64,000 nucleotides of DNA, from the NCBI GenBank assembly GCA_005116895.1, contig SWDO01000018.1, positions 88,157 to 152,156 on the forward strand, in the 5' to 3' direction. Position numbers and translations under genes: made by a program. The stretch is from Nitrospira sp. (GTDB lineage Bacteria > Nitrospirota > Nitrospiria > Nitrospirales > Nitrospiraceae). How positions within the stretch are numbered: position 1 is the first letter of the stretch; each line of letters begins with the position of its first letter. This document shows, in pieces, positions 5,714 through 58,489 of this stretch. The notes under the pieces were generated by a model, which searched no databases, was not told where the DNA came from, and saw nothing but the letters and a program-made list of their open reading frames with translations.

Positions 5714-5765
5714 AAAGCACGTACAGGCTGTCGGCCCGTTAGGGCCGACAGCCTGTACGTGCTTT
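5714..5765. terminator. Perfect 24-bp inverted repeat with 4-base loop
   Basis: Bases 5714-5737 (starting AAAGCACGTACAGGCTG) are exactly complementary to 5742-5765, with loop GTTA. It lies 20 bases after the stop codon of the gene ending at 5693. One arm starts with AAAG and the other ends in CTTT, but there is no long T run, so it is not a textbook intrinsic terminator. It could stop transcription or protect the 3' end of the mRNA. The perfect match suggests a recent or selected structure. Confidence 0.8.
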
Positions 5766-10130: not shown

Positions 10131-10245
10131 GGCTACTTCAAACAGCCTTCAACGACGCCGCAACGAATGGGAGCCCGAGGCGTACGGCTCTAGATACATT
10201 GCGGGTCGGGCGATGCGAGCACGCAGTTGGAGTCTTTTAACGGCC
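10131..10245. repeat. Degenerate copy of the GTAC-core intergenic element
   Basis: It begins GGCTACTTCAAACAGCC, carries the core GAGGCGTACGG...TACATTGCGGG and GCGATGCGAGCACG, and ends near TCTTTTAACGGCC. The same order of blocks occurs at 54961..55080, 58490..58606 and 59434..59550. Its right end overlaps the stop codon of gltD. This copy is the most diverged. Confidence 0.5.
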
Positions 10246-11670
10246 GCTTTTTGAAGACTTCCCCGCTTGCAGATACTGATTGATCCCAGCCGCCATCCTG
10301 CGCCCTTCGGCGATCGCCCAGACGATGAGTGAGGCGCCGCGTTTGGTGTCGCCGCCGGCGAAGACACCGTCGAGGTTGCTCATGAAGTTCTCGTCTACTG
10401 ATACCGCTCCTCGGGCATCATACTTCACGCCCAGGCTGTCGAGCAGGCCGCTCTTGACGGGGCCGGTGAACCCCATGGCCAGCAACACCAGATCAGCGTG
10501 TATCTCGAACTCGCTCCCAGGCATCGGTTCAAACTTGCCGTTTTCAAACTTAACCCGATTGGCATGGAGTTTTGTGACGTGGCCATCATGGCCGGTAAAT
10601 TTCGTGGTGGACACACTCCATTGCCGGTCACAGCCTTCTTCATGGGCGTGGGATGTACGCAGTTGCATCGGCCAGAGCGGCCACGGTGTGGATGCAGCCC
10701 GCTGCGGTGGCGGTTCCGGCAGCAACTCGAATTGATGGGCTTCGACGCAGCCTTGGCGGTGCGCGGTGCCGAGACAGTCGGACCCCGTATCGCCGCCGCC
10801 GATGATGATCACCCGCTTGCCCTTTGCGGTGAATGGTTCATCACTAAACTGAATGCCTGCCGTCCGCTTATTCTGCTGGGTAAGATAGTCCATCGCGAGA
10901 TGCACACCCTTCAGTTCACGTCCCGGGATTGGCAACTCGCGGGCCTGCTCGGCGCCCATCGTCAATCCCACCGCATCAAACTGTTGGCGCAACTGTTCGC
11001 CGGTGATATCCTTGCCGACGGCGACGCTGGTTTGGAACTTCACCCCTTCGGCCTTCATCTGTTCCAACCGTCTGTCGATGACCCACTTCTCCATTTTGAA
11101 GTCGGGAATGCCGTAGCGAAGCAGGCCCCCGATCCGATCGGATTTTTCGAAGACCGTCACCTCATGGCCGGCCCGAGCCAGTTGCTGCGCAGCAGCCAAC
11201 CCCGCCGGACCGGAACCGACAATCGCTACGGTCTTGCCGGTCTGAATAACTGGTAGGACCGGTGTCACGAAGCCTTCGTTGAAGCCACGGTCGACGATGT
11301 TCCATTCGAGAATGCGGATGGACACCGGATCTTCGTTGATACCCAGCACACAGGCCCCTTCGCAGGGCGCCGGGCAGAGCCGTCCCGTAAATTCGGGAAA
11401 GTTGTTGGTCGTGTGCAGCGCTTTCAGTGCATCGTTCCAACGTCCACGATAGACAAGATCGTTCCATTCGGGGATCAAATTCACGACCGGACAACCGGTG
11501 TTCCCTTGGCAAAACGGCACACCGCAGTCCATGCAGCGCGCACCCTGGGTCTTCAGCTTGTCCTCGGAGATCGGTTCGTACATCTCCTTCCAATCGAGCA
11601 CACGCAGTTCGATCGGTTTGCGCTTCGGGCCCTCACGGGCGTACTTTATAAAACCTTTTGGATCACCCAT
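10237..11670 (-). CDS. gltD: Glutamate synthase (NADPH) small subunit
   Basis: 477 residues from ATG 11670 (MGDPKGFIKY); the longer frame to 11715 reads into a repeat. The N-terminal domain has the two [4Fe-4S] cysteine clusters (CMDCGVPFCQGNTGCPV and CPAPCEGACVLG). Next come the FAD fold (VGSGPAGLAAAQQLARAGH), the NAD(P) fold (IIGGGDTGSDCLGTA) and the closing FAGGDTKRGASLIVWAI. It passes electrons from NADPH to the large subunit, which makes two glutamates from glutamine and 2-oxoglutarate. It appears intact. It follows gltB with a 100-bp gap holding a repeat hairpin. Confidence 0.95.
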   Translation of the reverse strand: MGDPKGFIKYAREGPKRKPIELRVLDWKEMYEPISEDKLKTQGARCMDCGVPFCQGNTGCPVVNLIPEWNDLVYRGRWNDALKALHTTNNFPEFTGRLCPAPCEGACVLGINEDPVSIRILEWNIVDRGFNEGFVTPVLPVIQTGKTVAIVGSGPAGLAAAQQLARAGHEVTVFEKSDRIGGLLRYGIPDFKMEKWVIDRRLEQMKAEGVKFQTSVAVGKDITGEQLRQQFDAVGLTMGAEQARELPIPGRELKGVHLAMDYLTQQNKRTAGIQFSDEPFTAKGKRVIIIGGGDTGSDCLGTAHRQGCVEAHQFELLPEPPPQRAASTPWPLWPMQLRTSHAHEEGCDRQWSVSTTKFTGHDGHVTKLHANRVKFENGKFEPMPGSEFEIHADLVLLAMGFTGPVKSGLLDSLGVKYDARGAVSVDENFMSNLDGVFAGGDTKRGASLIVWAIAEGRRMAAGINQYLQAGKSSKSGR

Positions 11671-11680: not shown

Positions 11681-11768
11681 GTGCTGAGAGCTGAGGACTG
11701 AGGACTGAGTGCCAAAACATGAACATGGATTCATCCTCTTAGACCTCAGTCCTCGTTACTCAGTCCTG
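11681..11768. repeat. Intergenic hairpin built from repeated word CTGAGGACTGAG
   Basis: The left arm (about 11690-11710) repeats CTGAGGA. The right arm (about 11743-11768) carries the complement, CCTCAGTCCTCGTTACTCAGTCC. It sits between gltB and gltD on their template. The word is different from the words at the other such hairpins in this window, but the design is the same. Confidence 0.7.
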
Positions 11769-11770: not shown

Positions 11771-14700
11771 TTAGTGGACTGCACTCGCCTTCCGCTTCCG
11801 TTCTTCCATCACACGCTTGTAATCGACCGGCATGACCTTGACGAACTTCGGCAAGGTGGCCTCGAACGCATCGAGTACATGCTTGGCCTTACGACTCCCC
11901 GTATACATAAAATGCTTGGTGATCAACCCGTGGAGCAGTTGCTTGTCTTCCTTCGTCGTCACCGGCTCCAGTTCGACCATCCCGGTGTTACAACGGCTCT
12001 GGAATGACCCGGCATCGTCCAGCACGAACGCCACTCCCCCGGACATGCCTGCCGCGAAGTTCCGGCCGGTCCTTCCGCACCGAGCAGCGTCGCGATGACC
12101 ACGTCGCGACCGGTCTTGATCTGACCATCCGTTTCAACACGGATGCGTCCACGAAGATCATTGAGGACCAGCGTCTGATGAGTTTCCGCCAGCCCCAGCT
12201 CCCAAGGAATTCCGGCATATTTGATCGACGACAATGGTGACGCACCCGTGCCGCCCGAATCGCCGCTGATGAGCACCTTGTCCGCATGGGCCTTGGCAAC
12301 ACCGGCTGCGACCGTGCCAACGCCGACCTCCGCCACCAGTTTCACGGAGACCCCGGCATCTGGATTGGAATTCTTGAGGTCGAAGATCAGCTGGGCTAAA
12401 TCCTCGATCGAATAGATGTCGTGATGCGGCGGCGGCGAAATCAGTTGCACGCCCGGCGTGGCATACCGGAAGCGCGCGATGTTTTCGTCCACCTTGTGCC
12501 CCGGCAATTGACCGCCCTCTCCAGGCTTGGCTCCCTGTGCCATCTTGATCTGCAATTCCCGCGCGTTCACGAGATAATGCGCCGTGACTCCGAATCGGGC
12601 CGACGCCACCTGTTTGATATAGCTGTTCTTTGAATCGCCGTTCGGCAAGGGTTTGAACCGCTCGGGATCTTCGCCACCTTCCCCAGTGTTGCTCTTGCCG
12701 CCGAGCCGGTTCATCGCGATCGCCAGCGTTTCGTGCGCTTCTTTGCTGATCGAGCCGAAGGACATCGCGCCGGTGTTGAAGCGCTTCACGATGTCTTTGG
12801 CCGGCTCCACTTCCTCAATCGGAATCGGCTGGGGCGCAAACTTGAAATCAAGGAGGCCGCGCAGGTTCGATCGCCGCTTGCTCTCGTCATTCACAATCTG
12901 CGCGAATTCAGCGTAGGTCTTCGGGTCGTTCGAACGGCTGGCATGCTGCAGTTTGTAGATCGTCTCCGGGTTCCAGTTGTGGTGCTCACCCTGGATGCGG
13001 TAGTGGATTTCACCACCGAAATCAAGTTGGCGGATCGCTGCAGGCTCATAGGCAGTGCGGTGTCGGCGTAGCGTTTCTTCCCCCACTTCGCGAATGCCGA
13101 CCCCTTCCACGCGCGACGGGGTCTCGGTAAAGTACCGATCGATCAGTTCGCGACTCAACCCGATCGCCTCGAAGATCTGCGCCCCGCAGTAGGACTGCAC
13201 CGTAGAAATCCCCATTTTCGAGAAGATCTTGAGCAAGCCCTTATTGATGGCCTTGATGAATTTCCCTTCCGCCGTCTGCGCATCGAGTCCTTCCGGCAGA
13301 TAGTGATCGCGCTCCATGTCGACGAGCGACTCGAACACCAGATACGGGTTGATGGTCCCGGCACCATAGCCGAGCAAACAGGCAAACTGATGCACATCGC
13401 GAGGCTCGCCCGTTTCGAGAATCAAGCCCACTTCAGTTCGCGTACACTCCCGAACCAGGTGATGATGGACGGCGGAGATACCGAGCAAACTTGGGATCGG
13501 GGCCCACTGCTCATCGACGCCACGATCACTCAAAATGAGAAACTTGTAGCCTTCCTTAATCGCCTGCGAGGCTTGCTGGCACAGCTCGTCGACCGCCTCG
13601 CCAAGCCCATCGGGCCCTTCGGCGACGCGGAACAACATACGGAGGGTCTTGCTCTTGAAATGCGGGTCGGAAATGCCTCTGATTTTTTGCAGATCGGCGT
13701 TCGTAAGAATCGGCTGCTGCACCTTGATACGGCGGCACGATTCGGGCGATTCGTCCATCAAGTTCGGCTTCGGACCGATGTTGGTCACGAGCGACATGAC
13801 AAGCTGTTCGCGGATCGGATCGATGGGGGGATTCGTCACCTGCGCAAAGAGCTGCTTGAAATATTTGAACAGCAGCTGCGGCCGATCGGACAGCACCGCC
13901 AACGGGGTATCGGTGCCCATCGACGAGAGTGCTTCTTCGCCCGTCATGATCATCGGCGTGATGACCATTTTGAGTTCTTCGACCGTATAGCCGAAGGCTT
14001 GCTGCCGCTGGCGAATCGTCGGGTGGTCGGGCTGTGGAACATTCAGCGGCTCCGGCAACTCATCCAACGAGACACCGTACTGCATCACCCAACTGCGATA
14101 GGGTTTGCGGCCCACAATATCGGCCTTAATCTCTTCATCATCGATGATGCGGCCCTGCACCGTGTCGACGAGGAACATGCGGCCCGGTTGGAGCCGGCCC
14201 TTCATGCGGATCTCTTTTGCTTCAGCCGGCAAGACCCCGGCCTCGGATGCCAGGACCACGAGACCGTCGGTCGTCACTTGATAGCGGCAAGGACGCAGCC
14301 CGTTCCGGTCCAACGTCGCACCGATCATTTTGCCATCGGTAAAGCAGACAGCCGCCGGCCCGTCCCACGGCTCCATCATTGCCGCGTGATACTGGTAAAA
14401 GCCCCGACGATCCAAATCCATTTGGGCATTCGCCACCCAGGGCTCTGGAATCAACATCATCATGGCATGGGCGAGCGAACGGCCCCCGAGCAGCAGAAAT
14501 TCGAGGGTATTGTCGAGACAGGCCGAGTCACTTTGATCCTCCGAGACGATCGGGAACAGCTTCTCCATGTCCTTCCCGAACAGCTCGGAATGAAGACGTC
14601 CCTGGCGAGCCTTCATCCAATTGACGTTCCCCTTCAGCGTATTGATCTCTCCGTTGTGGCACACATATCGATAGGGATGGGCCCTCGGCCAGGTGGGAAA

Positions 14701-15414
14701 GGTATTCGTACTGAAGCGTGAGTGCACCAAGGCCAGCGCGCTGACCATCCGTTCATCGGTGAGGTCTGGGTAGTACGCCGCCATTTGATGCGGCAACAGC
14801 AACCCCTTATAGACGATGGTGCTGGCCGACAGGCTGGAGACATAGAAGTGTTCCCGCCCTTGAATGGCCGACTCCGCCACGGCCTTTTCAATCCGCTTGC
14901 GAGTCACATACAGTTTTCGCTCAAATTGGGCTTCGTTGAAGGCATCTCGCGCGATGAAGATCTGCCGCATGAATGGCTCGGTCGTGCGCGCTTGCGCGCC
15001 GATCCGGTCGCTTTTGACCGGCACATCGCGCCAACCGAGCAGACGCAAGCCTTCTTCCACAAGAATCTCGGTGAACAGCCTCTCGCACAACCGTCGAGCC
15101 TCTGCAGTAGGCGGGAGAAACAGCTGGCCCACTCCGTACTCGCCAATATCCGGCAATGACACGCCGACATCCCCCGCGACCCGCTTCAGGAATGTGTGCG
15201 GGACTTGCAAAAGAATACCTGCTCCGTCTCCCGTACAGGAATCAGCGCCTTGCGCTCCGCGGTGGGTCAGATTCTCTAAGACTTGAAGCCCTTTACGGAC
15301 AATGTCATGGGATTTCTTCCCTTTGATATTGACGACAAAGCCGATCCCACAGGAGTCCTTCTCGTGCCGAGGATCATAGAGCCCTTGCTGGCGGGGAAAC
15401 CCAGGAATATTCAT
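11771..15414 (-). pseudogene. gltB: Glutamate synthase large subunit with internal deletion and frameshift
   Basis: The main frame (15414 down to about 12075) encodes the class II amidotransferase domain ([14 protein letters not shown], where the catalytic cysteine follows processing), the central domain and most of the FMN domain up to [13 protein letters not shown]. There the frame jumps. The true C-terminal end ([19 protein letters not shown] to the stop at 11771) is in another frame. Comparing with the E. coli protein from memory, about 260 residues are missing between LGAE and RNFAAG. The loss covers the three cysteines of the [3Fe-4S] cluster and most of the GXGXG beta-helix. Electron transfer from GltD would fail. 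An assembly or sequencing artefact is possible. The family assignment is certain. Confidence 0.88.
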
Positions 15415-19595: not shown

Positions 19596-20357
19596 CTAGG
19601 TGAGCGGCACGCGCGATTCGGCTGGCTGACGAGCTTCCAAACGAATCCGTCCCGCTCGGACATCCCGTTCCGCCTGCGCATAGCGCTCGGCCGTGCCGAT
19701 GTCCGACCAATAGCCCTGCAGATCATACCCGAACACCGACTCTCCTTGCTCGATGGCCCTCACATAGGGATCGATGATCGAGGAGGTCACTCCTTTCGGC
19801 ACCTGCCGGAGCAACCGAGGGTGCAAGATGTGAATCCCGGCGAACATGCGCGACATTGTGGGAACGGAATCCGCAAGCCCTTTTCCAGTTATGCGCAGGA
19901 TCTTCCTCTCCTTCTCTCCCACTTCAACCAGCCCCCACCGGGCAGCATCCGAATCTTCCCGGAGCACCAAGGTTGCCGCCGCGTGGCTGGTGCGGTGAAA
20001 ATCACAGAGCGCCTCAAGGTCCAATTCCACCAGCGTATCCCCATTGAGAATCAACACGGGCTCTCCCGAAAAATGAGGCTCCGCCTGTTTGATTCCACCG
20101 CCGGTGCCCAGAATGACCGGCTCATGCGAATAGATGATGCGCATCCCAAATTTCGAACCCGTACCCAAGGCCTGTTCGATCATCGGCCCCAGATGATGTA
20201 GATTGATCACGACCTGACGGAACCCATGCCGCCTCAGCAGCAGGAGGTTCCAGACGATGAGCGGCACCCCACCGACCGGCAGCAACGGCTTAGGAATGGT
20301 ATACGTCAGCGGTCTCAGGCGAGTGCCAAGACCAGCCGCAAGAATCATGGCTTTCAT
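19596..20357 (-). CDS. murU: Sugar-1-phosphate nucleotidyltransferase, MurU-like
   Basis: A 253-residue nucleotidyltransferase. The N-terminal signature LAAGLGTRLRPLT and KPLLPVGGVP bind nucleotide and sugar phosphate; GTGGGIKQA and LILNGDTLVELD supply the metal aspartate. The length and the neighbour (an AmgK-like kinase gene upstream on the same strand) match MurU, which makes UDP-MurNAc from MurNAc-1-phosphate in peptidoglycan recycling. A mannose- or glucose-1-phosphate transferase is the alternative. It converges with the NtrC-type gene. Confidence 0.83.
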   Translation of the reverse strand: MKAMILAAGLGTRLRPLTYTIPKPLLPVGGVPLIVWNLLLLRRHGFRQVVINLHHLGPMIEQALGTGSKFGMRIIYSHEPVILGTGGGIKQAEPHFSGEPVLILNGDTLVELDLEALCDFHRTSHAAATLVLREDSDAARWGLVEVGEKERKILRITGKGLADSVPTMSRMFAGIHILHPRLLRQVPKGVTSSIIDPYVRAIEQGESVFGYDLQGYWSDIGTAERYAQAERDVRAGRIRLEARQPAESRVPLT

Positions 20358-20365: not shown

Positions 20366-20449
20366 GTGAGGCGTACGGGGTAACGCGTGAGGAGCGAAGA
20401 GCAATTGAGTGATTCGTCGTCTCCTCACCCCTAACTCCTTACCCTTCAC
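20366..20449. repeat. Intergenic hairpin from repeated word GTGAGG / CTCAC
   Basis: The left arm (20366-20393) is GTGAGGCGTACGGGG and onward to GTGAGGAG. The right arm (20421-20449) is CTCCTCACCCCTAACTCC and onward to CCCTTCAC, largely its reverse complement. It fills the gap between murU and amgK almost exactly, ending 4 bp from the amgK stop. Confidence 0.65.
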
Positions 20450-20452: not shown

Positions 20453-21556
20453 TTATTGCAATTCAGGCACATACGGTGTGAGGTGCCTTCGGAGTGTATC
20501 CAGCTCCGGATGTTTTTCAAGATTGCGCCTGACGTAGCTCAAGACGCGAGGGATATCAGCTAAGAATTTCGAGTTGCCTTTGACCCGATCGATGTAGACA
20601 AACCGGCCGGCTGCCTTCAGATTGCGCTGAATACTCGTCAGATCAAACAGCCGTCGAAACGCGGCACGATTGGTCCAGACAAAGCGCTGTTCAGCCAGCT
20701 GATCGAGGTAGTACCCCACCAAATCGTCAACAAGGGCTTCGTCGAGTCGAATGTAGGCATCCCGTAAGAGTGAGGCCAGATCGTAGGTTGCCGGTCCCAT
20801 CAACGCATCCTGAAAGTCGATTACGCCAAGCCGCAACCCGTCAACCATCAAATTACGAGAGTGATAATCACGATGCGTAAAGACGCGCGGTTGTCCGGCG
20901 AGGAGTTCCGCGATTCCTTCGAACTCCCGTCTGATTGCCGTGGCGTCCTCCTCAGGCAACGGGCTGCCGCGCCGCGCCACAATTCCATACTCAAGAAAAT
21001 GCTCGAACTCCCACATCAGCAAGGGCACATCAAAACTGCGGTGAAACGCCAGGCACCCAGGATCAGCCGGAGTCGTGGCGTTGACCTGCATCTGCACCAG
21101 GATATTGATGGCCTGTTTATACCGTGACTCCACGCTCGGCGCATCCGCCTGGTTGACGGCCTCCGCTAATGTCACATCTCCGAAATCTTCCAGATAGAGC
21201 AGCCCTGAGGATTGATCATAGTAGTGGAGTACAGGAACCGGCACCTTTGCTTTAGCCAGATGCGACATGATGTTGATGAACGGTAGTTCCGAGATCTGGT
21301 GGATCCCGCCACTGACCGCCTCTTCAGACTGTTTGAAACCTTCCGGCTCAGCCAACTGCATCACGATCACAGCATGTGGTGGCCCGCCGGAAACGGTGGC
21401 TCGATAGTAGCGCCGATTGGAAGCATCGCCTGCCAATGGCGTCAGAGCCTTTAAGACGAGGCCGGGAGAAAGACGAGTCTCGACGGTCTGCGCGATGAGA
21501 GTTTGATCGGGAGGAGACAGGGGAATGAGGGGAGGAAGAGAATTCACAGTAGACAT
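20453..21556 (-). CDS. amgK: Amino-sugar kinase, AmgK-like
   Basis: 367 residues from ATG 21556 (MSTVNSLPP); the frame is open further up but unsupported. It has an aminoglycoside-phosphotransferase fold: catalytic loop FTHRDYHSRNLMV and metal-binding VIDFQDALMGPATYDLASL. AmgK phosphorylates anomeric MurNAc (and GlcNAc), and MurU then forms UDP-MurNAc, bypassing de novo MurA-MurB. The adjacent murU-like gene supports this reading strongly. Confidence 0.84.
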   Translation of the reverse strand: MSTVNSLPPLIPLSPPDQTLIAQTVETRLSPGLVLKALTPLAGDASNRRYYRATVSGGPPHAVIVMQLAEPEGFKQSEEAVSGGIHQISELPFINIMSHLAKAKVPVPVLHYYDQSSGLLYLEDFGDVTLAEAVNQADAPSVESRYKQAINILVQMQVNATTPADPGCLAFHRSFDVPLLMWEFEHFLEYGIVARRGSPLPEEDATAIRREFEGIAELLAGQPRVFTHRDYHSRNLMVDGLRLGVIDFQDALMGPATYDLASLLRDAYIRLDEALVDDLVGYYLDQLAEQRFVWTNRAAFRRLFDLTSIQRNLKAAGRFVYIDRVKGNSKFLADIPRVLSYVRRNLEKHPELDTLRRHLTPYVPELQ

Positions 21557-21785
21557 ACGAGTCGTATTATAACCACGAGGTCTCCGCTTGTCACGAAGAC
21601 CACCGGAAAACACCTGAGAAGATCGACTGCGCGCACAGAGAACCGGCAAGGAGTTTCCCGCTCAAGATCACAAGCATTTACTCTGGGCTGCCACCCACCC
21701 CGGAGCCTCTGCGTCCTAATCACGCCGTTTCTCGCCGTTGCCCGTGGCGATGCCCACACAGGTCTGGATCTTGACGCGTGAAATA

Positions 21786-29178: not shown

Positions 29179-29254
29179 GCGCCCGTAGCTCAATGGATAG
29201 AGCATCTGACTACGGATCAGAAGGTTACAGGTTCAAGTCCTGTCGGGCGCACCA
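29179..29254 (+). tRNA. tRNA-Arg(ACG)
   Basis: A cloverleaf can be drawn: acceptor GCGCCCG pairs with CGGGCGC; D arm GCTCAATGGATAGAGC; anticodon stem TCTGA/TCAGA around loop CTACGGA, giving anticodon ACG; T arm ACAGGTTCAAGTCCTGT; discriminator A followed by encoded CCA. Length 76 with CCA. Just behind, CCACAC/GTGTGG (29252-29271) can form a small hairpin. Confidence 0.96.
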
Positions 29255-34324: not shown

Positions 34325-34358
34325 ACGTCCGGCCAGGCCGACCCTCTTCCTGATCTCA

Positions 34359-34553
34359 GCCCACATTATTCATGACGGTTCGTCGCGAAATCGCGCAGTT
34401 GCCAGTCGAGACGGGCAAGCGGAGCCGTGAAGGACGGAGGCATACTTGAAGCAGTATGTCGAGGGACTGAACGGCGAGCACGCCCGCCGATAGGCTTGTC
34501 GTAGCGGCGAATCCGCGATTGCAGCAGAAGCGTTCATGAATAATGTGGGCTAC
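34359..34553. repeat. ~195-bp palindromic-ended intergenic element
   Basis: The ends are inverted copies: AGCCCACATTATTCATGACG on the left and CGTTCATGAATAATGTGGGC on the right, 18 of about 20 bases pairing. Inner arms AAATCGCG / CGCGATT also pair. The core has GAGGCATACTTGAAGCAGTATGTCGAGG, a short stem that resembles the GTAC core of the other elements. No protein is credible in it. It lies just before the hydrolase gene at 34579, so that gene's promoter may lie in the element. Confidence 0.75.
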
Positions 34554-39954: not shown

Positions 39955-40041
39955 GCTCTAGGTTAGCATGTTTCAAAAGCCTGAGCGAATAGTCGACTAG
40001 AAAGTCGAAGAACAATATGATCTGTGTGCGTATCGTCCGGC

Positions 40042-40710
40042 TTAATAAATGATCCCCCCGACGACCCAATGCCGGTCGTCCGGAATGTCGATCAGCAATC
40101 GTGTGAGATTCATGCGGGCCAACTGGGACCCGATTTCATCCTCCGTGAAAGCGGCGATCAGGGAATTGTAAAAATCACGGCGTAAAATGTCCGGCTCATT
40201 GGCCGCGTACTGATCGACAATGGCCTGTGCTGCTTCCGGCGAGTCAGGACGGAGCAGATCCATCACCAACACCGGTGCCCCAGGCTTCACCAACTGGCGA
40301 AGCTTCTGCCAGAACTGCAACGGGTTCGGAAGGTGATGAAGCAGACTATTGGAAATCGCAGCGTCGACGATTCTGGCGCCGGCAACCTCTTCATACCGTT
40401 CGCACCGCAACGCAATGCGGTCTGCCAATCCGGCCCGTTTTACTGCCTGTTCTCCCAACTGGATCATCGGCGTCGAGGCATCGATGCCGATCACCTGGCA
40501 GGCTGGATACAGGTTGGCGAATCGAATTGGAATGTCGCCTGGACCGCAGCCGAGATCCAGAACACGTCCCTGCGAAAACTCAGGAAAATATTCCTGAAAG
40601 CGATCGACGAATCCTTGATTCTCTTCTGCGAAATCAGCAGATGCGTACGCCTCTGCTTGCTTCGGGTCGTCCATGAGTTCTGGCTCAAGTACTCGATCCA
40701 TCATCTGCAC
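40042..40710 (-). CDS. Class I SAM-dependent methyltransferase
   Basis: 222 residues. Motif I is RVLDLGCGPGDIP (about 49-61), followed by VIGIDASTPMIQLGE and an AISNSLLHHLPNP segment at motif IV; the C-terminal strands end WVVGGIIY. The substrate is not known; the fold resembles small-molecule methyltransferases. Its 3' end has a second degenerate copy 0.8 kb downstream (39230..39345). Confidence 0.85.
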   Translation of the reverse strand: MQMMDRVLEPELMDDPKQAEAYASADFAEENQGFVDRFQEYFPEFSQGRVLDLGCGPGDIPIRFANLYPACQVIGIDASTPMIQLGEQAVKRAGLADRIALRCERYEEVAGARIVDAAISNSLLHHLPNPLQFWQKLRQLVKPGAPVLVMDLLRPDSPEAAQAIVDQYAANEPDILRRDFYNSLIAAFTEDEIGSQLARMNLTRLLIDIPDDRHWVVGGIIY

Positions 40711-40745
40711 CCTTCGTCGTTCGTGAAGCGTATCTCGTTCTCTCG

Positions 40746-40871
40746 ATCATGAGTTCCAAGTCTCAAGTTCAAAGTTTCAAGTTGTGCAGAAACCTAAAAC
40801 TTGAAACCTCAAACATGAAACTCGAAACCGTTGACCGACGCGCTTCACGCTTCACGAAATACGCTTCACGA
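40746..40871. repeat. Hairpin of repeated AAGTTTCAAGTT word plus CGCTTCACG repeats
   Basis: The left arm (40751-40783) has CAAGTCTCAAGTTCAAAGTTTCAAGTT. The right arm (40791-40823) has AAAACTTGAAACCTCAAAC, its partial complement. From 40839 the word CGCTTCACG appears three times, the last copy overlapping the stop codon of the MOSC gene. Confidence 0.7.
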
Positions 40872-41345
40872 TTCCATTGCTACTGCATCTCCCGGCCGTA
40901 CCACACCACCACGCAGCACTTTCGCGTAGACCCGGCTCCACCCTGGGTTCACTTTCTGGGACATGCGAGAGAAATCCTCATCGCGAAACCAACGTCCATT
41001 GTGGCTGCAGGGCGTCGTATAGCTCGTCAGCTCCAGTTGGACCTCCGGGCCGATGGTTAACCTGACGCCAGGACGCACCTGGTCCCAGTCCAATCCTGAC
41101 ACAGTAAGATTTTCTCCAGAGGAGCCTGGATCAATCGGATGACCTTCTTCTTGTAGTTGCTCAATCCGTTCAAGCGAATACACACAGACGGCACGGTCAG
41201 GCCCGCCATGGAACTTGAGATTCCGCTGGCGATCGCCATCTACTCCTTTGTGACTCACCGTCGCTTCCAACACGGGAAGCTTCGGAACCCCACCATCGGA
41301 GACGTTGATCTGATGTACATATGGATAGGGTGGCCTATTCAACAT
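40866..41345 (-). CDS. MOSC domain protein
   Basis: 159 residues. The MOSC fold is shown by GVDGDRQRNLKFHGGPDRAVCVYSLE, GSSGENLTVSGLDW and the conserved cysteine in TTPCSHNGRWF. The domain occurs at the C-terminus of molybdenum cofactor sulfurase and in YiiM-type molybdoenzymes and binds Moco-linked sulfur. This short form stands alone. It overlaps the end of prmA by 7 bp, hence co-translated. Confidence 0.88.
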   Translation of the reverse strand: MLNRPPYPYVHQINVSDGGVPKLPVLEATVSHKGVDGDRQRNLKFHGGPDRAVCVYSLERIEQLQEEGHPIDPGSSGENLTVSGLDWDQVRPGVRLTIGPEVQLELTSYTTPCSHNGRWFRDEDFSRMSQKVNPGWSRVYAKVLRGGVVRPGDAVAMES

Positions 41346-42223
41346 CGTGAGATCTCTCCATCGCAGGATTCCGGCCTGAGGAATTTCATCGCCACCCAGC
41401 CTTCGTCTTCACGCCGTTCCAAACACGCGAGACCGAGACTGGACAACCGATCCATAATCTCAGTTTGTTGTTCGACCAGAATGCCGGAGACCAAGATGCT
41501 CACCCCGCCCAGGGCAGAACAGGCCAAATCATCTGCGAGGTTCAAGACCGTCTGCCGATCAAGATTGGCCAGTACCAGATCAGCCGTTGTCCGTCTGCCT
41601 TGCGGCAGATCAGCCAACGTACCGCACAAGACTTCAATCCGATCCGCCAAGCCATTTAGCTCGACATACTCTTTCGCACAATCGACCGCAACAGAATCAA
41701 TCTCGACTCCAATGGCGGAGGCTGCGCCCAGCTTGACCGCAGCCATCGCCAGAATCGCGCTCCCAGCCCCCACATCCAAAATATGTTCACCCCCTCGAAT
41801 ATCTGTTTGCAGCCACTCCAGCAACATACGCGTGGTCGCATGGTGGCCGGTGCCGAAGGCTTGCTTCGGGTCCAGCACGATCTCGATGTCTTGTGGACCC
41901 AACACGACCGGCTCCCAGCTCGGGCGAATCACCAATCGACCGATGCGAAGCGGCTTCACCGAACGAGTCCATGCCTCATTCCAATCCTGAGAGGGCACTC
42001 GCTGCACCGAGAGAGGGATCGCCCTGCTCGACTGCACGAGATCTGCAAGAACTGACTGTACTGAAGCCAGCTTTTCGTCATTCCATTGGTCTTCCGCCCA
42101 ATAGAGATGAACCACTCCTTCATCTTCCCAGGCGCCCTGAACGGCAGCATCATCGAGCCTGCTCAATAACTCGCCGGCATCAAGGCGTTCCTGGATACAG
42201 ATATCAACCCAATGGTCGGACAT
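41339..42223 (-). CDS. prmA: Ribosomal protein L11 methyltransferase
   Basis: 294 residues from ATG 42223 (MSDHWVDICIQ); the upstream frame runs into a repeat. PrmA hallmarks: an N-terminal substrate domain, then DPKQAFGTGHHATTRMLLEWL (about 143-163), motif I LDVGAGSAILAMAA and LVLANLDRQTVLNL with N-L-D in place of the usual N-I-L. It trimethylates lysines and the N-terminus of L11. The MOSC gene follows in the same transcript. Confidence 0.9.
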   Translation of the reverse strand: MSDHWVDICIQERLDAGELLSRLDDAAVQGAWEDEGVVHLYWAEDQWNDEKLASVQSVLADLVQSSRAIPLSVQRVPSQDWNEAWTRSVKPLRIGRLVIRPSWEPVVLGPQDIEIVLDPKQAFGTGHHATTRMLLEWLQTDIRGGEHILDVGAGSAILAMAAVKLGAASAIGVEIDSVAVDCAKEYVELNGLADRIEVLCGTLADLPQGRRTTADLVLANLDRQTVLNLADDLACSALGGVSILVSGILVEQQTEIMDRLSSLGLACLERREDEGWVAMKFLRPESCDGEISRC

Positions 42224-42240
42224 GTCACTCCGTAACGGAA

Positions 42241-42333
42241 TTTGTTGATCTGATGAGATGATCTGTTGATTTGGATCTTTTGCAGATTCTGAATTCAACA
42301 GATCGACGGGTCAACAGATCAACAGATACTCAG
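42241..42333. repeat. Hairpin of repeated word ATCTGTTGAT / ATCAACAGAT
   Basis: The left arm (about 42243-42276) carries TGTTGATCTGATGAGATGATCTGTTGAT. The right arm (about 42294-42328) carries CAACAGATCGACGGGTCAACAGATCAACAGAT, the complement repeated. It lies between the divergent prmA and MutS-like genes, so it also overlaps their promoters. Confidence 0.7.
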
Positions 42334-42379
42334 ATTGTTATTTGACGTCCCCCGTCCGTTCCCAGTAAGGTCGCCTGTT

Positions 42380-44212
42380 ATGACACGCTCCCGCACGGTT
42401 CAGCTCGAAACGGCGGTCCGGCGAACAGATCGCCTGATCGCTCAAGGCACCCAGGTCAGCGCGACCTTCACGCGCTGGCGACTGGCTATTTTCCTCATCG
42501 GCCTCATCGGCACCGTGACCCTCTATAAGCTCGATTGGTATCACAGCGGCAATCTATCCGTCGGCGTGTTCCTAGCAATCTTCATCACAGTCGCTGCGTA
42601 TCATAACAGGGTGGAAACCGGGATTCATCGGCTTCGACAATGGAAGCAGATCAAACTGGCTCATCGTGCACGCATCGCCTTGGATTGGGCGGCCATTCCG
42701 CCAAGACCCGGCGAATCTCCGACAGCTCACCCCTACGCCATTGACCTCGATCTCGTTGGAACTCATTCCTTGGCACATCTCCTCGACACCACCGTCTCGG
42801 ACCATGGCCGAGAGCGCTTGCACAGCTGGTTGCTGAACCAACCCCCTCCCCCTTCACAGTGGGAGACACGGCAGTCGTTGGTGAAGGAACTGGCACCTCG
42901 CTCTTTATTCCGGGATCGCTTGACCCTTGAGGCCAAACTGACAGGAGAACAGGAAATCAACGGCAGGCGGCTGGCCGCTGTGCTTGAACACCCAGTCGGT
43001 CTGCCCAACCTGAATGTGCTGCTGGTCATCCAGAGCCTCTTCGCCTGCACCACGATCGTCCTCGCATCGGCCACATTATTCGGCCAGCTTCCTGGGTATT
43101 GGATGTTTTCATTCGCAGCCTATGCACTGATCTACTTCATGACCGATCAAGGGGAAGAGCTCCTGGAACATGCGGTCGGCCTGCACCATGAGACCGAACG
43201 GCTTGCCATCGTCCTGGGCTACCTTGAGCGACAGGCTCGGCGACAAAGCACCGCCCTCGCCTCGGTCTGTGTAAATCTGACAGGGGGAGCCAGTCCCACC
43301 CTGCATCTCAAACAGGCCGCACGGACGCTTCATGCGATCAGCATCAAGGCCCATCCCCTTGTCCATTTGGCCGTCAACGCGTTATGCCCATGGGATCTCT
43401 GGTTCACTCGACAACTGATTCACGCCCAGCGCGAGATCAAGCATGCGCTCCCGCAGTGGTTGGACTGCCTGGCAGAAGTCGAAGCAGCATCGGCTCTGGG
43501 AACCTTTGCCTCTCTCCATCCCGATTACGCATGGCCGACGCCCATCATCTCAACCGGTGAGCAGAACGGCGCAGCAGCCGTTCTGCAGGCCACTCACCTT
43601 GGCCATCCACTCCTCTCTACAACGAGCCGTATCGCAAACGATGTTGGTCTAACCGGACTCGGCTCGATCCATCTGATCACGGGCTCGAATATGTCGGGCA
43701 AGAGTACGTTCCTGCGAACGATCGGCATCAATCTCTGCCTGGCGCAAGCTGGAGGGCCGGTCTGCGCACAGTCGTTTACATGGACCTGGAGCCGCCTGGC
43801 CTGCTGCATTCGTGTCGATGATTCACTCGACGCCGGCCTTTCGTTTTTCTACGCTGAAGTCAAACGACTGAAGACCATTCTCGATGCCACCAAGGAACGC
43901 ACCGCGCCACCGGTGCTGTTCCTGATCGACGAGATCTTCAAAGGCACCAACAATCGAGAGCGGCTCATCGGCAGCCGTGCCTACATCACCGCACTGTCGC
44001 AAGGACACGGCTTCGGCCTCGTGAGCACCCATGATCTGGAGCTGGCGGATCTGGAGCAAGCCGTCCCCGGCTTGCTCAATGCCCACTTTCAAGAAACTGT
44101 CTCGGCCGGCGCACTGGAGTTCGATTACCGAGTCAGACCGGGCCCCTGCCCCACGACGAACGCCCTGCGGATTATGGAGCTGGAAGGATTGCCTATTCCC
44201 CCGGCTCCTTAA
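42380..44212 (+). CDS. Membrane-anchored MutS-family ATPase
   Basis: 610 residues from ATG 42380. Residues about 38-55 and 62-80 are two membrane helices, with a second pair near 225-240 and 255-270. The C-terminal MutS ATPase domain is intact: Walker A TGSNMSGKSTFLRT (about 437-450), CIRVDDSLDAGLSFFYAE, Walker B VLFLIDEIFKGTNN and LVSTHDLELADL. Mismatch-recognition domains are absent. Such MutS-like membrane proteins are known as domain architectures, but their substrate is unknown. The LplT-Aas fusion gene follows after 23 bp. Confidence 0.83.
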   Translation: MTRSRTVQLETAVRRTDRLIAQGTQVSATFTRWRLAIFLIGLIGTVTLYKLDWYHSGNLSVGVFLAIFITVAAYHNRVETGIHRLRQWKQIKLAHRARIALDWAAIPPRPGESPTAHPYAIDLDLVGTHSLAHLLDTTVSDHGRERLHSWLLNQPPPPSQWETRQSLVKELAPRSLFRDRLTLEAKLTGEQEINGRRLAAVLEHPVGLPNLNVLLVIQSLFACTTIVLASATLFGQLPGYWMFSFAAYALIYFMTDQGEELLEHAVGLHHETERLAIVLGYLERQARRQSTALASVCVNLTGGASPTLHLKQAARTLHAISIKAHPLVHLAVNALCPWDLWFTRQLIHAQREIKHALPQWLDCLAEVEAASALGTFASLHPDYAWPTPIISTGEQNGAAAVLQATHLGHPLLSTTSRIANDVGLTGLGSIHLITGSNMSGKSTFLRTIGINLCLAQAGGPVCAQSFTWTWSRLACCIRVDDSLDAGLSFFYAEVKRLKTILDATKERTAPPVLFLIDEIFKGTNNRERLIGSRAYITALSQGHGFGLVSTHDLELADLEQAVPGLLNAHFQETVSAGALEFDYRVRPGPCPTTNALRIMELEGLPIPPAP

Positions 44213-44235
44213 ATCAGGCACAATACCCCTCACGG

Positions 44236-47200
44236 ATGACCACCTCAGCCGGGCCTGAACCCCAGTCTTGCTCCCATCCCCTGCGCGGCCTCCTGATTGC
44301 GCAATTCTGCGGGGCATTCAACGACAACGCCTGGAAGCTGATGGTCGCGTTGCTCGCGATACGGCAAGCCACTGTCGGTCTAGCGCCAGGCCCCGAACTG
44401 GAGACCGTTGCCCAGACGCAAACGGCCATGGCATTCGTCATTTTCACGCTGCCGTTGATGCTCTTGTCTCTTGTCGGAGGCACATTGGCCGATCGCGTCA
44501 GTAAGCGGACGGTCATCATCTCGATCAAAGTGGTCGAGGTTTTTCTCATGGCCGCCGGCACTGCCGCCCTCTGGCTGAATCCAGCCGGAGGAATCTTACC
44601 CTTGATCGTCTTATGCGGCATGGGCGTGCATAGCGCACTCTTTAGCCCATCAAAGTACGGCATTCTTCCAGAATTGATCCCCCATGAACGGCTCGCTGCC
44701 GGCAATGGGTTGTTGGAGATGTGGACCTTCGCCGCGATCCTGACTGGAACCGCCGCCGGAGGCTTCCTCTTGCAAGCAGCCGGGGATCACATCTGGCTCG
44801 CTCCGCTCGCATTGACCGGACTCTCAGTCATCGGCCTCACGACCGCCTTTGGTATTCCACCGGTGTCAGCAGCCCGCCACGCTGGAGGCGTGGGAGCCAC
44901 CATCCAAGGCGCTTGGGCCGCGATTCAGTCCGAACGGATGCTGCGCATGGCCATCCCCATGGAAATCCTCTTCTGGACGGTGGCGAGCCTGTTCGGTCAA
45001 AACTTGCTGGTCTATGCAAAGGCCGTCTTGCATCTGTCCGATGCGATGTCGGGCCTTCCGCTGACCGTGTTATCGGTGGGTATCGGCATCGGCGCGATGC
45101 TGGTCGGACGGATTTCGAAGAACCGCGTAGAGTACGGGCTGATTCCCTTGGGCGCGATGGGCGTCTTTCTGACCTTGCTCTTGCTCGGCGTTCTGACACC
45201 GCCGTTGTCCGGAACATTTCTCATGATGGTTGCCCTGGGCATTTCCAGTTCATTCATCTTTGTTCCCTTGAATGCCATTCTCCAATGGAAATCTCCACCC
45301 GATCGGCGCGGCGCCGTCATATCGTTCTCCAACACCTGTGTCTTCACCGGTATCTTGCTGGGGTCACTGGCCGGTGGGTCCCTCGCCAGTGTCGGTGTCT
45401 CGACGACCGGCATTTTCTTGGCTGCCGCCGCCATGACCCTGGCCGGTATCGCATGGGCCCTCTGGCTGTTGCCCGATACATTACTTCGCTTGGTGCTGAT
45501 CATCCTCACCAATACCCTGTATCGTCTCCGCATCATCGGCGAGACTCATGTACCAAAATCCGGTGGCGCACTCCTCGTCCCCAATCACGTCTCCTTTATC
45601 GACGGCTTTCTCCTAATCGCCAGCGTGGATCGCCCCGTGCGATTTGTCGTCGACGCTCAGTATGCCGACCAGCCGATCTTCAGACCCTTCATGAAAGCGC
45701 TCGGGGTCATTCCCATTTCCTCGCACGGGGGCTTGCGAGTGATCTTACGGGCGCTCCGCGATGCGGGTGCGGCCATCGACAAGGGAGAACTCGTCTGCAT
45801 TTTTCCTGAAGGCCAGATCACGCGCACCGGCACACTGTTGCCATTTCGACGGGGTTTCGAACGGGTCGTGCAGGGACGGACGGCCCCCATCATTCCAGTC
45901 CACCTCGACCGTGTGTGGGGCAGCATCTTCAGCTTCAATCGCAGGCGCTTTCTCTGGAAGATACCGGAACATCTTCCTTATCCTGTCACCGTGTCGTTCG
46001 GCACACCGCTACCGCCAAGTACGACCATCCACGAACTGCGCGCGAAGATCCGAGCGCTCGGCGAAGCGGCCTGGCAACTCCGGAAATCGCATCGCCAGCC
46101 GCTCCATCGTGAATTCATCCGCTCGATGCGCCGCTATCCGTTCCGCTTCGCCATGGCTGACCAGAACCGTCCGCGAGTCTCGGCCCTCCAGGCCCTGATC
46201 GGATCGATTGTCTTGGCCAGAACCCTGCGACCCCATTGGGACAGGCAAGACCGGGTGGGCGTGCTGCTGCCACCGACTGTCGCCGGTGCGCTAGTGAACG
46301 TAGCTGCTCCGCTGTGTGGCAAAACCATCGTGAACTTGAATTACACCGTGGGAAAAGCAGGGCTGGAGGCAGCGGTACGTCTTGCCGGCCTACGCACGAT
46401 CGTCACCAGCCGTACGTTCATCGAGAAAGCCAAACTCGAATTACCCGACGGACCATCAGTGATCTGGCTCGAAGACGTCGCCAAGACGATTGGGACAGGC
46501 ATAAAAGTGACGGCCGCCCTGCTGGCACTCTTTGCTCCTTGCCGTCTTATCGAACGAGCCTGCGGGCAAACAACCCTACTCACGCCCGATAGTCTGGCGA
46601 CCATCATCTTCAGCAGCGGCAGCACCGGAGAGCCCAAAGGCGTCATGCTCTCCCATTTCAGCGTCGACTCCAACACTCAGGGCGCGACACAAGTGCTCCA
46701 TCTCTATCAGGACGAACGTGTTCTCGGCATTCTGCCGTTCTTCCATTCTTTCGGATACATGGTGTTTTGGTTCGTCATGTTCAACAACGCGACGATGATC
46801 TTTCACCCTTCTCCGCTCGACGTGGCGGCCATCGGCGAACTGATCAGAAAATATCGCATCACCTTCCTCGTCACAACACCGACGTTCTTACAGCTCTATT
46901 CCCGTCGTTGTACCCCTGAACAATTTAGTTCGGTACGGGTGATCCTCACCGGTGCTGAAAAACTGCAGGCGCGACTCGCCCAGGCGATCGAAGATACGTT
47001 CGGAGTCGGACCGATCGAAGGCTACGGAGTGACGGAATGCGCCCCTGTCATTGCCGTCAATTGCCCGGACTTCCGCGCAGCCGGCTATTATCAACCGGCT
47101 TCACGACGTGGAACTGTGGGTCAGCCACTTCCTGGTGTATCGGTACAGATTGTCGATCCTGATAATTACACGCCACTCCCGGCAGGCACACCGGGCATGT

Positions 47201-47679
47201 TGCTCGTGAAGGGACCGAATGTGATGAATGGCTATCTTGGGCGCGAAGATCTGACCGCTCAGGTCATACGGGATGGCTGGTATATTACCGGTGACATCGC
47301 CACCCTGGATGAAGAGGGATTTTTAACGATTACCGACCGGCTGTCTCGGTTTTCAAAAATCGGTGGCGAGATGGTCCCCCACGGCAAAGTCGAAGAAGCC
47401 CTGCAACAGGCTGCTGAAGCTGACACACAAGTCTTTGCCGTAACCGGGTTACCCGATGAGAAAAAGGGAGAGCGTCTCGCAGTCCTCCATACCCTGGAAG
47501 AATCCCGCATTCCCAGCGTCCTGGAAAAGCTCTCAGCCAGCGGCCTGCCTAATTTGTTCATTCCTGGAAAGCACCAGTTCGTCAAGGTCGATGCGTTACC
47601 GGTTCTTGGGACCGGCAAACTTGATTTACGAGGCGTGAAGCGCATTGCGGCGGAGCGACTCTCTTCGCGTGAAACGTGA
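44236..47679 (+). CDS. Fusion of MFS lysophospholipid flippase, acyltransferase and acyl-ACP synthetase (LplT-Aas)
   Basis: 1147 residues. Part one (about 1-420) is a 12-helix MFS domain like LplT, with FCGAFNDNAWKLM and LADRVSKRTVI. Part two (about 430-640) is a PlsC-type acyltransferase with NHVSFIDG (H-x4-D) and FPEGQITRTG. Part three (about 640-1147) is an AMP-forming ligase with IIFSSGSTGEPKGV (about 788), YGVTECAP and WYITGDIATLDEEGF. E. coli uses two proteins for the same steps: LplT imports lysophospholipid and Aas reacylates it with acyl-ACP. The triple fusion is complete in frame. It follows the MutS-like gene by 23 bp. Confidence 0.92.
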   Translation: MTTSAGPEPQSCSHPLRGLLIAQFCGAFNDNAWKLMVALLAIRQATVGLAPGPELETVAQTQTAMAFVIFTLPLMLLSLVGGTLADRVSKRTVIISIKVVEVFLMAAGTAALWLNPAGGILPLIVLCGMGVHSALFSPSKYGILPELIPHERLAAGNGLLEMWTFAAILTGTAAGGFLLQAAGDHIWLAPLALTGLSVIGLTTAFGIPPVSAARHAGGVGATIQGAWAAIQSERMLRMAIPMEILFWTVASLFGQNLLVYAKAVLHLSDAMSGLPLTVLSVGIGIGAMLVGRISKNRVEYGLIPLGAMGVFLTLLLLGVLTPPLSGTFLMMVALGISSSFIFVPLNAILQWKSPPDRRGAVISFSNTCVFTGILLGSLAGGSLASVGVSTTGIFLAAAAMTLAGIAWALWLLPDTLLRLVLIILTNTLYRLRIIGETHVPKSGGALLVPNHVSFIDGFLLIASVDRPVRFVVDAQYADQPIFRPFMKALGVIPISSHGGLRVILRALRDAGAAIDKGELVCIFPEGQITRTGTLLPFRRGFERVVQGRTAPIIPVHLDRVWGSIFSFNRRRFLWKIPEHLPYPVTVSFGTPLPPSTTIHELRAKIRALGEAAWQLRKSHRQPLHREFIRSMRRYPFRFAMADQNRPRVSALQALIGSIVLARTLRPHWDRQDRVGVLLPPTVAGALVNVAAPLCGKTIVNLNYTVGKAGLEAAVRLAGLRTIVTSRTFIEKAKLELPDGPSVIWLEDVAKTIGTGIKVTAALLALFAPCRLIERACGQTTLLTPDSLATIIFSSGSTGEPKGVMLSHFSVDSNTQGATQVLHLYQDERVLGILPFFHSFGYMVFWFVMFNNATMIFHPSPLDVAAIGELIRKYRITFLVTTPTFLQLYSRRCTPEQFSSVRVILTGAEKLQARLAQAIEDTFGVGPIEGYGVTECAPVIAVNCPDFRAAGYYQPASRRGTVGQPLPGVSVQIVDPDNYTPLPAGTPGMLLVKGPNVMNGYLGREDLTAQVIRDGWYITGDIATLDEEGFLTITDRLSRFSKIGGEMVPHGKVEEALQQAAEADTQVFAVTGLPDEKKGERLAVLHTLEESRIPSVLEKLSASGLPNLFIPGKHQFVKVDALPVLGTGKLDLRGVKRIAAERLSSRET

Positions 47680-47805
47680 AACGTATCTCAGAAGAAAAAG
47701 GACTCGGCTACCAGGGCAGAGCGCCGACCGATGACTTATTCCAAACAACGCGTCACGAAAGACGCTCGCCTCGCTGAGCGGGCGAAGCGGGCTTCACGAG
47801 ATACG
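47664..47805. repeat. Hairpin of repeated word GTGAAACGTGAAACG, right arm inside the next gene
   Basis: The left arm CGCGTGAAACGTGAAACGTATCTC (about 47666-47689) overlaps the stop of the fusion gene. The right arm GCTTCACGAGATACG (47791-47805) and an earlier CGCGTCACGAAAGACG lie in the first codons of the amidohydrolase gene. The words belong to the same CACG/GAAACG type as at 40839-40871. Confidence 0.6.
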
Positions 47806-48798
47806 GTTCAAAAATCCCTGATCGATTGCCACGTCCATCTCGCGGCGTTACCGGATGGCGACAATGGGTGCTTCATCTCGCCGAAACTCCTTCGAAGTCC
47901 GCTCTTTTGCTTCCTGCTGTGGAAACATGATCTCTCACCGACAGAGCCACGGGAGGCCAATCAGCGATATCTGGAGCACCTCCTCACGGAGTTACGCGCC
48001 TCTCAACATGTCTCACAGGTGGTGCTGCTCGGCATGGACGGGTTCTACGACCAGACCGGCCTACTCAATCGCCAGCATACGGACTTTCTCGTCAGCAACG
48101 ACTACGTCTTCAAAACCGTGCAGGCCCATCCCGATGTTTTTCTCGCCGGCCCTTCGATCAATCCGCAGCGTGAAGATGCGATAGATGAAGTCCACCGTTG
48201 CGCCGATGCTGGAGCTGTCTTGATCAAAGTCTTACCGAACGCCCAGCACTTCAACCCGGCTGACCAGAAGTACAAACCGTTCTACCGTGCACTGGCCCAG
48301 AGAAAGTTGCCGTTTCTCAGCCATGTCGGCTACGAGTTCAGTCTGATCGGTAAGGATCAATCACTCGGCGATCCTGATCGACTTCGCCTGGCATTAGACG
48401 AAGGTGTCACCGTCATCGCCGCCCATGCCTGCAGCTACGGTCTGATGTTGCATGAGAAGTTTCTGCCCACTTTTCAAGAGCTCGCGCGGCGCTATCCGCA
48501 CTTCTACGCCGATATTTCGGCCCTCACCCAACCCCATCGACTGAAAATGTTGCTGCATCTCAGACATTACCCAGAGCTTCATTCACGCCTCCTCTTCGGA
48601 ACAGATTACCCGTTGTCCGTCTTTCACATGGCTGCCTGGGGCCGTGTCGGCCTTGGCACGTTATGGAACATGATCCGCACACGAAACCGCTTCGATCGGC
48701 AAGTTGAGGTCTGTAACGGGCTCCGTCTTGGTTTTCGCTCACTCGGAGACATACTGCCGCATTCACAAATTTCCAGGTCGACGCACAATGAATCGTGA
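47731..48798 (+). CDS. Amidohydrolase-family (TIM-barrel metal-dependent hydrolase)
   Basis: 355 residues from the only good in-frame ATG at 47731. Metal-binding DCHVHLAAL (about 33-41), HVGYEF, HACSYG and FGTDYPLS are the four ligand regions of amidohydrolase_2 enzymes (decarboxylases and lactonases). The first about 28 residues are translated repeat sequence and not conserved-looking, so the true start might be later. The stop overlaps the start of the sigma factor gene by 11 bp. Confidence 0.82.
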   Translation: MTYSKQRVTKDARLAERAKRASRDTVQKSLIDCHVHLAALPDGDNGCFISPKLLRSPLFCFLLWKHDLSPTEPREANQRYLEHLLTELRASQHVSQVVLLGMDGFYDQTGLLNRQHTDFLVSNDYVFKTVQAHPDVFLAGPSINPQREDAIDEVHRCADAGAVLIKVLPNAQHFNPADQKYKPFYRALAQRKLPFLSHVGYEFSLIGKDQSLGDPDRLRLALDEGVTVIAAHACSYGLMLHEKFLPTFQELARRYPHFYADISALTQPHRLKMLLHLRHYPELHSRLLFGTDYPLSVFHMAAWGRVGLGTLWNMIRTRNRFDRQVEVCNGLRLGFRSLGDILPHSQISRSTHNES

Positions 48799-51190: not shown

Positions 51191-51202
51191 AAGGAGTTGT
51201 GC

Positions 51203-51463: not shown

Positions 51464-51477
51464 TTCCCGGTTCGTCG

Positions 51478-51533: not shown

Positions 51534-51544
51534 TCTTGATTGAA

Positions 51545-56445: not shown

Positions 56446-56467
56446 TCAACGGATCGCGTGAGGAATC

Positions 56468-58481
<2,014 letters not shown>

Positions 58482-58489
58482 AGGGAATA

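Follow-up and report, generated by a model that had tools for sequence, protein, structure and literature searches.

Nitrospira genomes carry short intergenic stem-loops whose arms are arrays of degenerate seven-base words, and this is a real, genus-wide feature that combines a heptanucleotide stem-loop architecture with REP/MITE-like spread. The window considered here is the whole 64,000-nt stretch analysed (contig SWDO01000018.1, positions 88,157 to 152,156) of a 90%-complete Nitrospira sp. assembly, the source genome; other genomes are designated by G numbers. The stem-loops are read as REP/MITE-like palindromes with heptad arms that disperse as whole elements, are remodelled and persist behind stop codons, an explanation to which we give an even chance. 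It builds on their observed anatomy, dispersal, turnover and position, on two inversions and on heptad-sized indels.

Anatomy of the window hairpins

The initial annotation had described six word-built hairpins between genes, and a reading of the sequence found an imperfect inverted repeat with repeated arm words at all six places. Against 500 dinucleotide shuffles each, the inverted-repeat score gave p ≤ 0.002 at 11681, 20366, 40715 and 42241, p = 0.004 at 51478 and p = 0.036 at 47664. RNA folding z-scores were −4.1 (11681), −3.9 (20366), −4.4 (composite at 40715–40863), −5.5 (42241), −2.1 (47664) and −4.5 (51478). Five of the hairpins consist of 7-base words and one, at 42241, of 8-base words. 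The 7-nt unit was found, by arm or by array, at 11681, 20366, 40746 and 47664; at 51478 there are two 7-bp copies, and the period along the arm is not clear. No strand is assigned to the hairpins as wholes.

The heptad hairpin CTGAGGA/TCAGTCC (11683–11768; arm lag-7 match 0.55) is located between two minus-strand genes, 11959–15414, which is the glutamate synthase large subunit, and 10237–11670, a pyridine-nucleotide oxidoreductase that is probably the small subunit. The heptad hairpin GTGAGGC/GTAACGC (20366–20449; lag-7 0.56, lag-14 0.58) lies between two minus-strand genes, an APH-type kinase gene upstream (20453–21649) and a nucleotidyltransferase gene downstream (19596–20357), 3 nt behind the stop codon of the former and 8 nt from the start of the latter. 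The short hairpin at 51478–51533, with two GTTGAAT/TGTGAGT words, separates the convergent genes 51203–51463 and 51545–52060; many relatives have NNTGAGT-class hairpins in this gap, and both the word and the number of heptads vary across many species. The weakest of the six comprises the arms CGTGAAACGTGAAACGTATCTC / CTTCACGAGATACG (47664–47810), each made of only two or three words and separated by about 100 nt of loop; its GAGCGGGCGAAGCGGGCTTCACGAGATACG module was found again elsewhere in the source genome. Since this hairpin overlaps a called ORF start at 47731, the amidohydrolase gene probably begins further downstream.

The hairpin GATCTGTT/CAACAGAT (42240–42327) is an octad and not a heptad element, with a lag-8 match of 0.70 versus 0.15 at lag 7 and a TRF period of 8. 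It is flanked by the divergent prmA (41339–42223) and a MutS-domain gene (42335–44212), and it is present at the equivalent gap in loci L009, L049, L074 and L076. The related-looking hairpin TGATGATCTGACGATTTG occurs at C31:56551 of the source genome; together with the octad (42241–42333), it suggests that period 8 may be a second class.

Other features were seen alongside. At 5714–5765, a perfect 24-bp intergenic hairpin with A/T ends looks like a bidirectional terminator. An Rfam search of the window gave, above the gathering score, just one tRNA (29179–29251) and a TPP riboswitch (56351–56453, upstream of gene 56571–58481), and left the hairpins unmatched.

A seven-base periodicity in intergenic DNA

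The intergenic survey covered 210 kb from 80 Nitrospira loci, and runs of N at scaffold gaps were excluded from the count of tandem arrays. Period-7 arrays numbered 45; shuffled DNA gave 0.8, and coding DNA gave 1.9 once its length had been equalised. Apart from 14 and 21, every other period up to 25 had at most 11 arrays. Inverted repeats scoring at least 42 numbered 155 versus 8 in shuffles, so that the structures clearly exceed chance on both counts. The self-match of their arms was in excess at lag 7 (z 16), lag 14 (z 11) and lag 21 (z 6); these z-scores ignore the kinship of orthologous gaps, and the specificity to multiples of 7 therefore outweighs their size. The signal of lag autocorrelation across all intergenic DNA was weak, as miscalled coding DNA diluted it.

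The counts cover 0.86 Mb of the source genome, 0.4 Mb from each of G001 and G013, and the Nitrospira loci. In the 0.86 Mb of the source genome, 19 inverted repeats passed the lag-7 criterion, versus 0–3 at lags 5, 6 and 8–13. The heptad signal was absent from 200 kb of E. coli. Period-7 arrays and two heptad hairpins were present in 100 kb of Nostoc plasmids, and TGAGT arrays occur in a few plasmid records, Nostoc included.

Words and arms

A single design with varied words, common to Nitrospira genomes, had been proposed in the initial annotation, and it holds across the genus. The further claim that each place has its own word holds for the six window hairpins and fails genome-wide, where one word, GTTTCNN (equivalent to CAAGTTT), dominates, occurring in about 13 of the 19 clear hairpins of the source genome. 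Nitrospira genomes have word dialects. Arrays of three GTTTC words number 29 in G000, 47 in G004, 31 in G010 and 26 in G017, and none were found in G015, G078, G002, G018 and G051; arrays of three TGAGT words number 16 in G051, 6 in G018, 13 in G206 and 1 in the source genome.

Heptad words have a constant core of 3–5 nt, and their remaining positions are free. The polarity of each word is nearly constant (GTTTC 27:0, TGAGT 12:0, TGAGG 6:0, GTGAA 9:1). TGA/TCA content is raised 2.5–2.6 fold, which fits the idea that TGA words may be favoured for bringing stop codons in all frames; the 5′ arms of GTTTC hairpins contain no TGA-type words.

The word match between the two arms was 0.779 in register versus 0.760 with permuted words (46 hairpins), and that of GTTTC arms was 0.784 versus 0.777 against random family words (18 hairpins). 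Adjacent GTTTC words had identical NN positions in only 2 of 50 cases, versus 6.4 expected, so these words are not fresh duplications. The two arms resemble degenerate arrays that are independent of each other but for a shared core. The initial annotation had suggested a process that builds palindromes from local seeds; such copying was mostly not borne out by the arm matches, the fixed polarity and the conserved loop of the dispersed family described below.

Replication on the spot would be a way of making such hairpins: 7-nt slippage and template switching, invoked as in PMC8794818 and PMC8604942, would copy a seed to its inverted complement and later change its word. This origin is unlikely, because the arms do not copy each other heptad by heptad, adjacent words are not recent duplications, word polarity is fixed (27:0 and 12:0) and one family, loop included, is common to several genomes; turnover, considered further on, has several traits in its favour. 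An improbable alternative is a dedicated synthesis process, in which an enzyme with a step of 7 nt would add heptads whose core is fixed and whose other positions are free, oriented oppositely on either side of a loop. If true, it would account for the restriction of similarity between arms and between neighbouring heptads to the core, for the recurrence of period 7 in unrelated phyla and for the fixed polarity.

The constant core of 3–5 nt with other positions free, the fixed polarity and the 7-nt spacing would also suit arrays to which a nucleoid or RNA-binding protein attaches, one monomer per 7 nt. Similar proposals exist for IHF/HU in Geobacter metallireducens (PMC2700814) and for Csp proteins (PMC4679880). 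Binding arrays are conceivable at most, and hardly probable: the strong 3′-end position of the hairpins is not expected of nucleoid sites, and the cores differ between genomes, even within one orthologous gap, so that many proteins would be needed.

A dispersed composite element

The hairpin that had been placed at 40746–40871 belongs to a nested element that begins near 40715. In this composite (40715–40871; inverted-repeat score 63), outer CGTNNNN arrays, CGTCGTTCGTGAAGCGTATCTCGT / ACGCTTCACGCTTCACGAAATACG, enclose an inner element of GTTTCNN arrays. The inner part is composed, on the forward strand, of a 5′ array AGTTCCA AGTCTCA AGTTCAA AGTTTCA AGTT (40752–40783), a non-palindromic loop GTGCAGAAACCTAA (40784–40797), which is conserved across dispersed copies, and a 3′ array AACTTGA AACCTCA AACATGA AACTCGA AACC (40798–40829), both arrays being read from the sequence.

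A search with the composite element found at least 10 diverged copies in the source genome and matches in 57 of 79 genomes of the genus, with a very uneven distribution; it was not found in plasmid records. Alignment was possible for 26 copies, from the source genome and many other Nitrospira genomes, which have in common the conserved non-palindromic loop TTGTGCAGAAACC and a right shoulder CGTTGGCCGATACGCTTCACG. These copies differ by indels of 7 or 14 nt that are restricted to a single arm. Heptad hairpins outside the composite family are mostly without a common loop.

A second dispersed family was also noticed, with ends like AGGATGNTGAAAAAG...CCAGC and a middle of 70–100 nt. Its sites include C31:64898 of the source genome, where a 127-nt segment is present in one and absent in the other of the source genome and G013, and the G013 gaps matching C31:74532, 56551 and 137858. 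The window repeats 58489–58607 and 34358–34551 bear only a resemblance to this family.

Placement behind stop codons

Using gene calls from a simple purpose-written caller, 69 non-redundant heptad hairpins were assigned to 55 co-directional, 12 convergent and 2 divergent gaps. Of the settings named in the initial annotation, the divergent one (42241) is the exception: 18.1 hairpins would be expected in divergent gaps by length (p = 2.5e-7, a statistic that ignores kinship). The median distance is 9 nt from the stop codon and 25 nt to the start codon. Convergent gaps hold 12 heptad hairpins versus 10.6 expected, and 48 other inverted repeats versus 25.1. Eight GTTTC hairpins follow one another at C7:107.8–123.3 kb of the source genome, in gaps of chemotaxis/motility and T2SS/PilMN-like clusters, and many hairpins thus lie inside operons. 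Plain termination, already doubted in the initial annotation, is insufficient, as hairpins occur within operons, and convergent gaps are enriched for ordinary inverted repeats, which would be expected of terminators, but not for heptad hairpins.

A pattern scan of 40000–52500 gave no G+C-rich stem with a T run at the 40746, 42241 and 51478 stems, and an intrinsic terminator was rejected for these; two short terminator-pattern sites fall within the 47664 loop region.

Hairpins a median of 9 nt behind stops, within che/mot and T2SS operons, may be selected RNA elements that protect or process the 3′ ends of operon mRNAs, the word being free as long as the stem pairs. The avoidance of divergent gaps agrees with this, as does the convergent gap at 51478, which keeps a hairpin across many species while word and heptad number vary. 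Selection for an RNA role is nevertheless doubtful as the main explanation: many orthologous gaps are empty, including cheZ–motA and 40704–40866 (see below), copy number ranges from none to dozens among related genomes, and the free NN positions of the words are not kept paired.

Gain, replacement and inversion

The turnover of words in orthologous gaps was seen directly. The gap between 40042–40704 and 40866–41345 contains, depending on species, hairpins of GTGAAGC, TATGGCC, GCTGATG, TGAGTTN or AAGGTTGAGG words, or none; in several species, the 40704–40866 gap is about 25–30 nt long and the hairpin is absent.

G013 is 95.4% identical to the source genome over C31. The cheZ–motA gap measures 141 nt with a hairpin in the source genome versus 16 nt without one in G013, the flanking proteins being 98 and 99% identical; it is also 16 nt in G015. 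The gap at C7:118724 measures 123 nt versus 29 nt in G013 (flanking proteins 91 and 72% identical), and that at C30:49116 measures 103 nt versus 20–22 nt in more distant relatives (82–88%). At C31:85054, a GTAAGG-word hairpin of the source genome corresponds to a GTTTC-word hairpin in G013 and to a plain 37-nt gap in two other relatives; the GTAAGGAGTGAGG array of this site extends into codons of the upstream gene. In C31, 20 of 183 orthologous gaps differ by at least 20 nt between the source genome and G013, some of them through the second, unrelated dispersed family.

Presence and absence are thus seen at new hairpin sites, where neither a target-site duplication nor a clean boundary is visible, the whole short gap being replaced. 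For recently gained hairpins, the source genome contains no more than partial matches at other places, the best being 82% over 72 nt. This agrees with donors that are old, have diverged or lie in the part missing from the assembly, or with local synthesis.

Two inversions in place were found. Upstream of cheB, the loop reads GTTTTCCGACAAC in the source genome and GTTGTCGGAAAAC in G013, and the inner part of this gap scores 72 in reverse versus 65 forward. At C14:228163, a 96-bp element is inverted, at 96.9% identity, within 1786 bp collinear with G016 (92.9%), a more distant relative than G013. One case emerged from 4095 gap comparisons searched for inverted loops, the other from dispersed-family loci. 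Template switching between arms would be expected to yield such inversions as a by-product, and they are joined, on the side of replication on the spot, by the replacement of whole gaps instead of clean insertion, the heptad-sized indels, the array that enters the upstream codons at C31:85054 and the lack of close donors for new hairpins. Of the copying process envisaged in the initial annotation, replication-type remodelling does occur, as attested by the two inversions and the 7- or 14-nt indels; the copying of seeds is mostly unsupported.

Two further intergenic regions of the source genome differ from G013. C31:38808–38911 (L083) holds a 30-bp inverted repeat, about 98 nt in all, between convergent genes, and is a clean case of presence/absence, with a gap of 2 nt in G013. 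C31:243356–243900 (L094) is an intergenic region of about 530 nt; its first 80 nt are heptad-rich and hypervariable relative to G013, and the stretch beyond them, inspected in part, is strongly conserved and possibly corresponds to an uncalled gene or RNA, judging from this conservation.

Origin

According to the preferred explanation, dispersal of whole REP/MITE-like elements, the hairpins would be small palindromes of about 55–150 bp belonging to several families, (GTTTCNN)n, (TGAGTNN)n, (CGTNNNN)n and others, each with an inverted array opposite. Whole elements would be copied into new gaps, both within and between Nitrospira genomes; lacking a gene of their own, they would be non-autonomous and behave like REP/REPIN or MITE. 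Resident elements would gain or lose whole heptads and be inverted in place between their arms, via template switching or inverted-repeat recombination, and would later be lost or replaced by an element with another word. They would survive where they are least harmful, right behind stop codons, often in operons and rarely in promoter-only divergent gaps. Hairpins between cistrons would be expected in transcripts and may stabilise or process mRNA. Several results count against this explanation: gaps are replaced as a whole, with no target-site duplication or clean boundary seen, new hairpins have only partial matches in the source assembly, a mobilising gene was not found in the genomes surveyed, and most hairpins outside the composite family share no loop.

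REP/REPIN elements proper would be mobilised by a RAYT (Y1) transposase, and dispersed extragenic palindromes near gene 3′ ends, in lineage-specific families, are what they would leave. A mobilising gene was not found among 20 genomes, in which Y1/RAYT-type genes are scarce, in numbers that do not track hairpin copies: G015 has 5 Y1-type genes and no GTTTC arrays, whereas G004 has 1 and 47 arrays. In the source genome, no heptad hairpin adjoins either of the two Y1 copies, and no GTAG/CGTC tag was noticed in the alignment of 26 copies. A RAYT/Y1 mobiliser was rejected on the lack of flanking hairpins in the source genome and of correlation in the 20 genomes, which makes REP/REPIN proper highly improbable.

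Comparison with other repeat systems

The closest known system is the heptanucleotide stem of trnL P6b in Nostoc. The P6b region of the trnL (tRNA-Leu UAA) intron of Nostoc and Calothrix has a heptanucleotide stem-loop of class I (TDNGATT) or class II (NNTGAGT) (PMC4476775, PMC3488679, citing Costa et al. 2002). Whole-stem replacements have been inferred there, and the repeat classes are described as of unknown evolutionary origin (PMC4476775); a role in RNA was argued, with two words serving one job. As in P6b, the two arms of a Nitrospira hairpin are complementary arrays of degenerate 7-nt words, in which a core is constant and the other positions are free; the class II word is identical to a Nitrospira word, copy numbers differ in 7-nt steps and a whole stem can be swapped for another word at one site, in P6b several times independently. 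Unlike P6b, a single group I intron site, the Nitrospira hairpins occupy many intergenic sites per genome, behind stops and in another phylum, with more words, dispersed copies and in-place inversions; they share its architecture but are a different element.

REP, REPIN and BIME elements are likewise small extragenic palindromes, dispersed at the 3′ ends of genes or between cistrons, with lineage-specific amplification; the Nitrospira elements differ in their heptad arms and 7-nt length variation, and no linked RAYT was found in the source genome. Similarities also extend to MITEs and to the small dispersed repeats of cyanobacteria, reportedly treated by Elhai et al. in 2008: they are non-autonomous, about 100–150 bp long, have inverted arms and a shared inner sequence, and vary in presence between close genomes. 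At the Nitrospira gain sites, the gap is replaced and no target-site duplication is visible.

Direct repeats of the heptamer TAACTGA occur in Beggiatoaceae, Cyanobacteria and Bacteroidetes (PMC4679880), and tandem hepta- and octanucleotide families in Geobacter metallireducens (PMC2700814). Both are intergenic 7- or 8-nt repeats with family-specific words. TAACTGA arrays, unlike the Nitrospira hairpins, are one-sided, lie mostly upstream of start codons and are predicted not to fold (PMC4679880). The Geobacter classes are drawn as looping and switching strands, a likeness to the Nitrospira hairpins; the families are left as putative regulator binding sites, and turnover data were not found in the parts consulted. 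One hallmark of template switching between inverted repeats is an inverted spacer (PMC8604942), and the loop inversions at two Nitrospira loci are shared with hairpins made in this way (PMC8794818, PMC8604942); the other hallmark, arm homogenisation, was not seen in 46 Nitrospira hairpins. Recombination would equally yield spacer inversion.

The origin of heptanucleotide stems, that is, the source of their words and the replacement of whole stems, has so far been a puzzle at one Nostoc locus. Each Nitrospira genome supplies many natural replicates, and with word dialects between genomes and gaps that differ at 95% identity, birth, spread, inversion and loss become traceable. In these nitrifiers, palindromes quickly remodel short intergenic gaps, including those of core operons, and this remodelling matters for annotating the ends and starts of genes and for interpreting RNA-seq.
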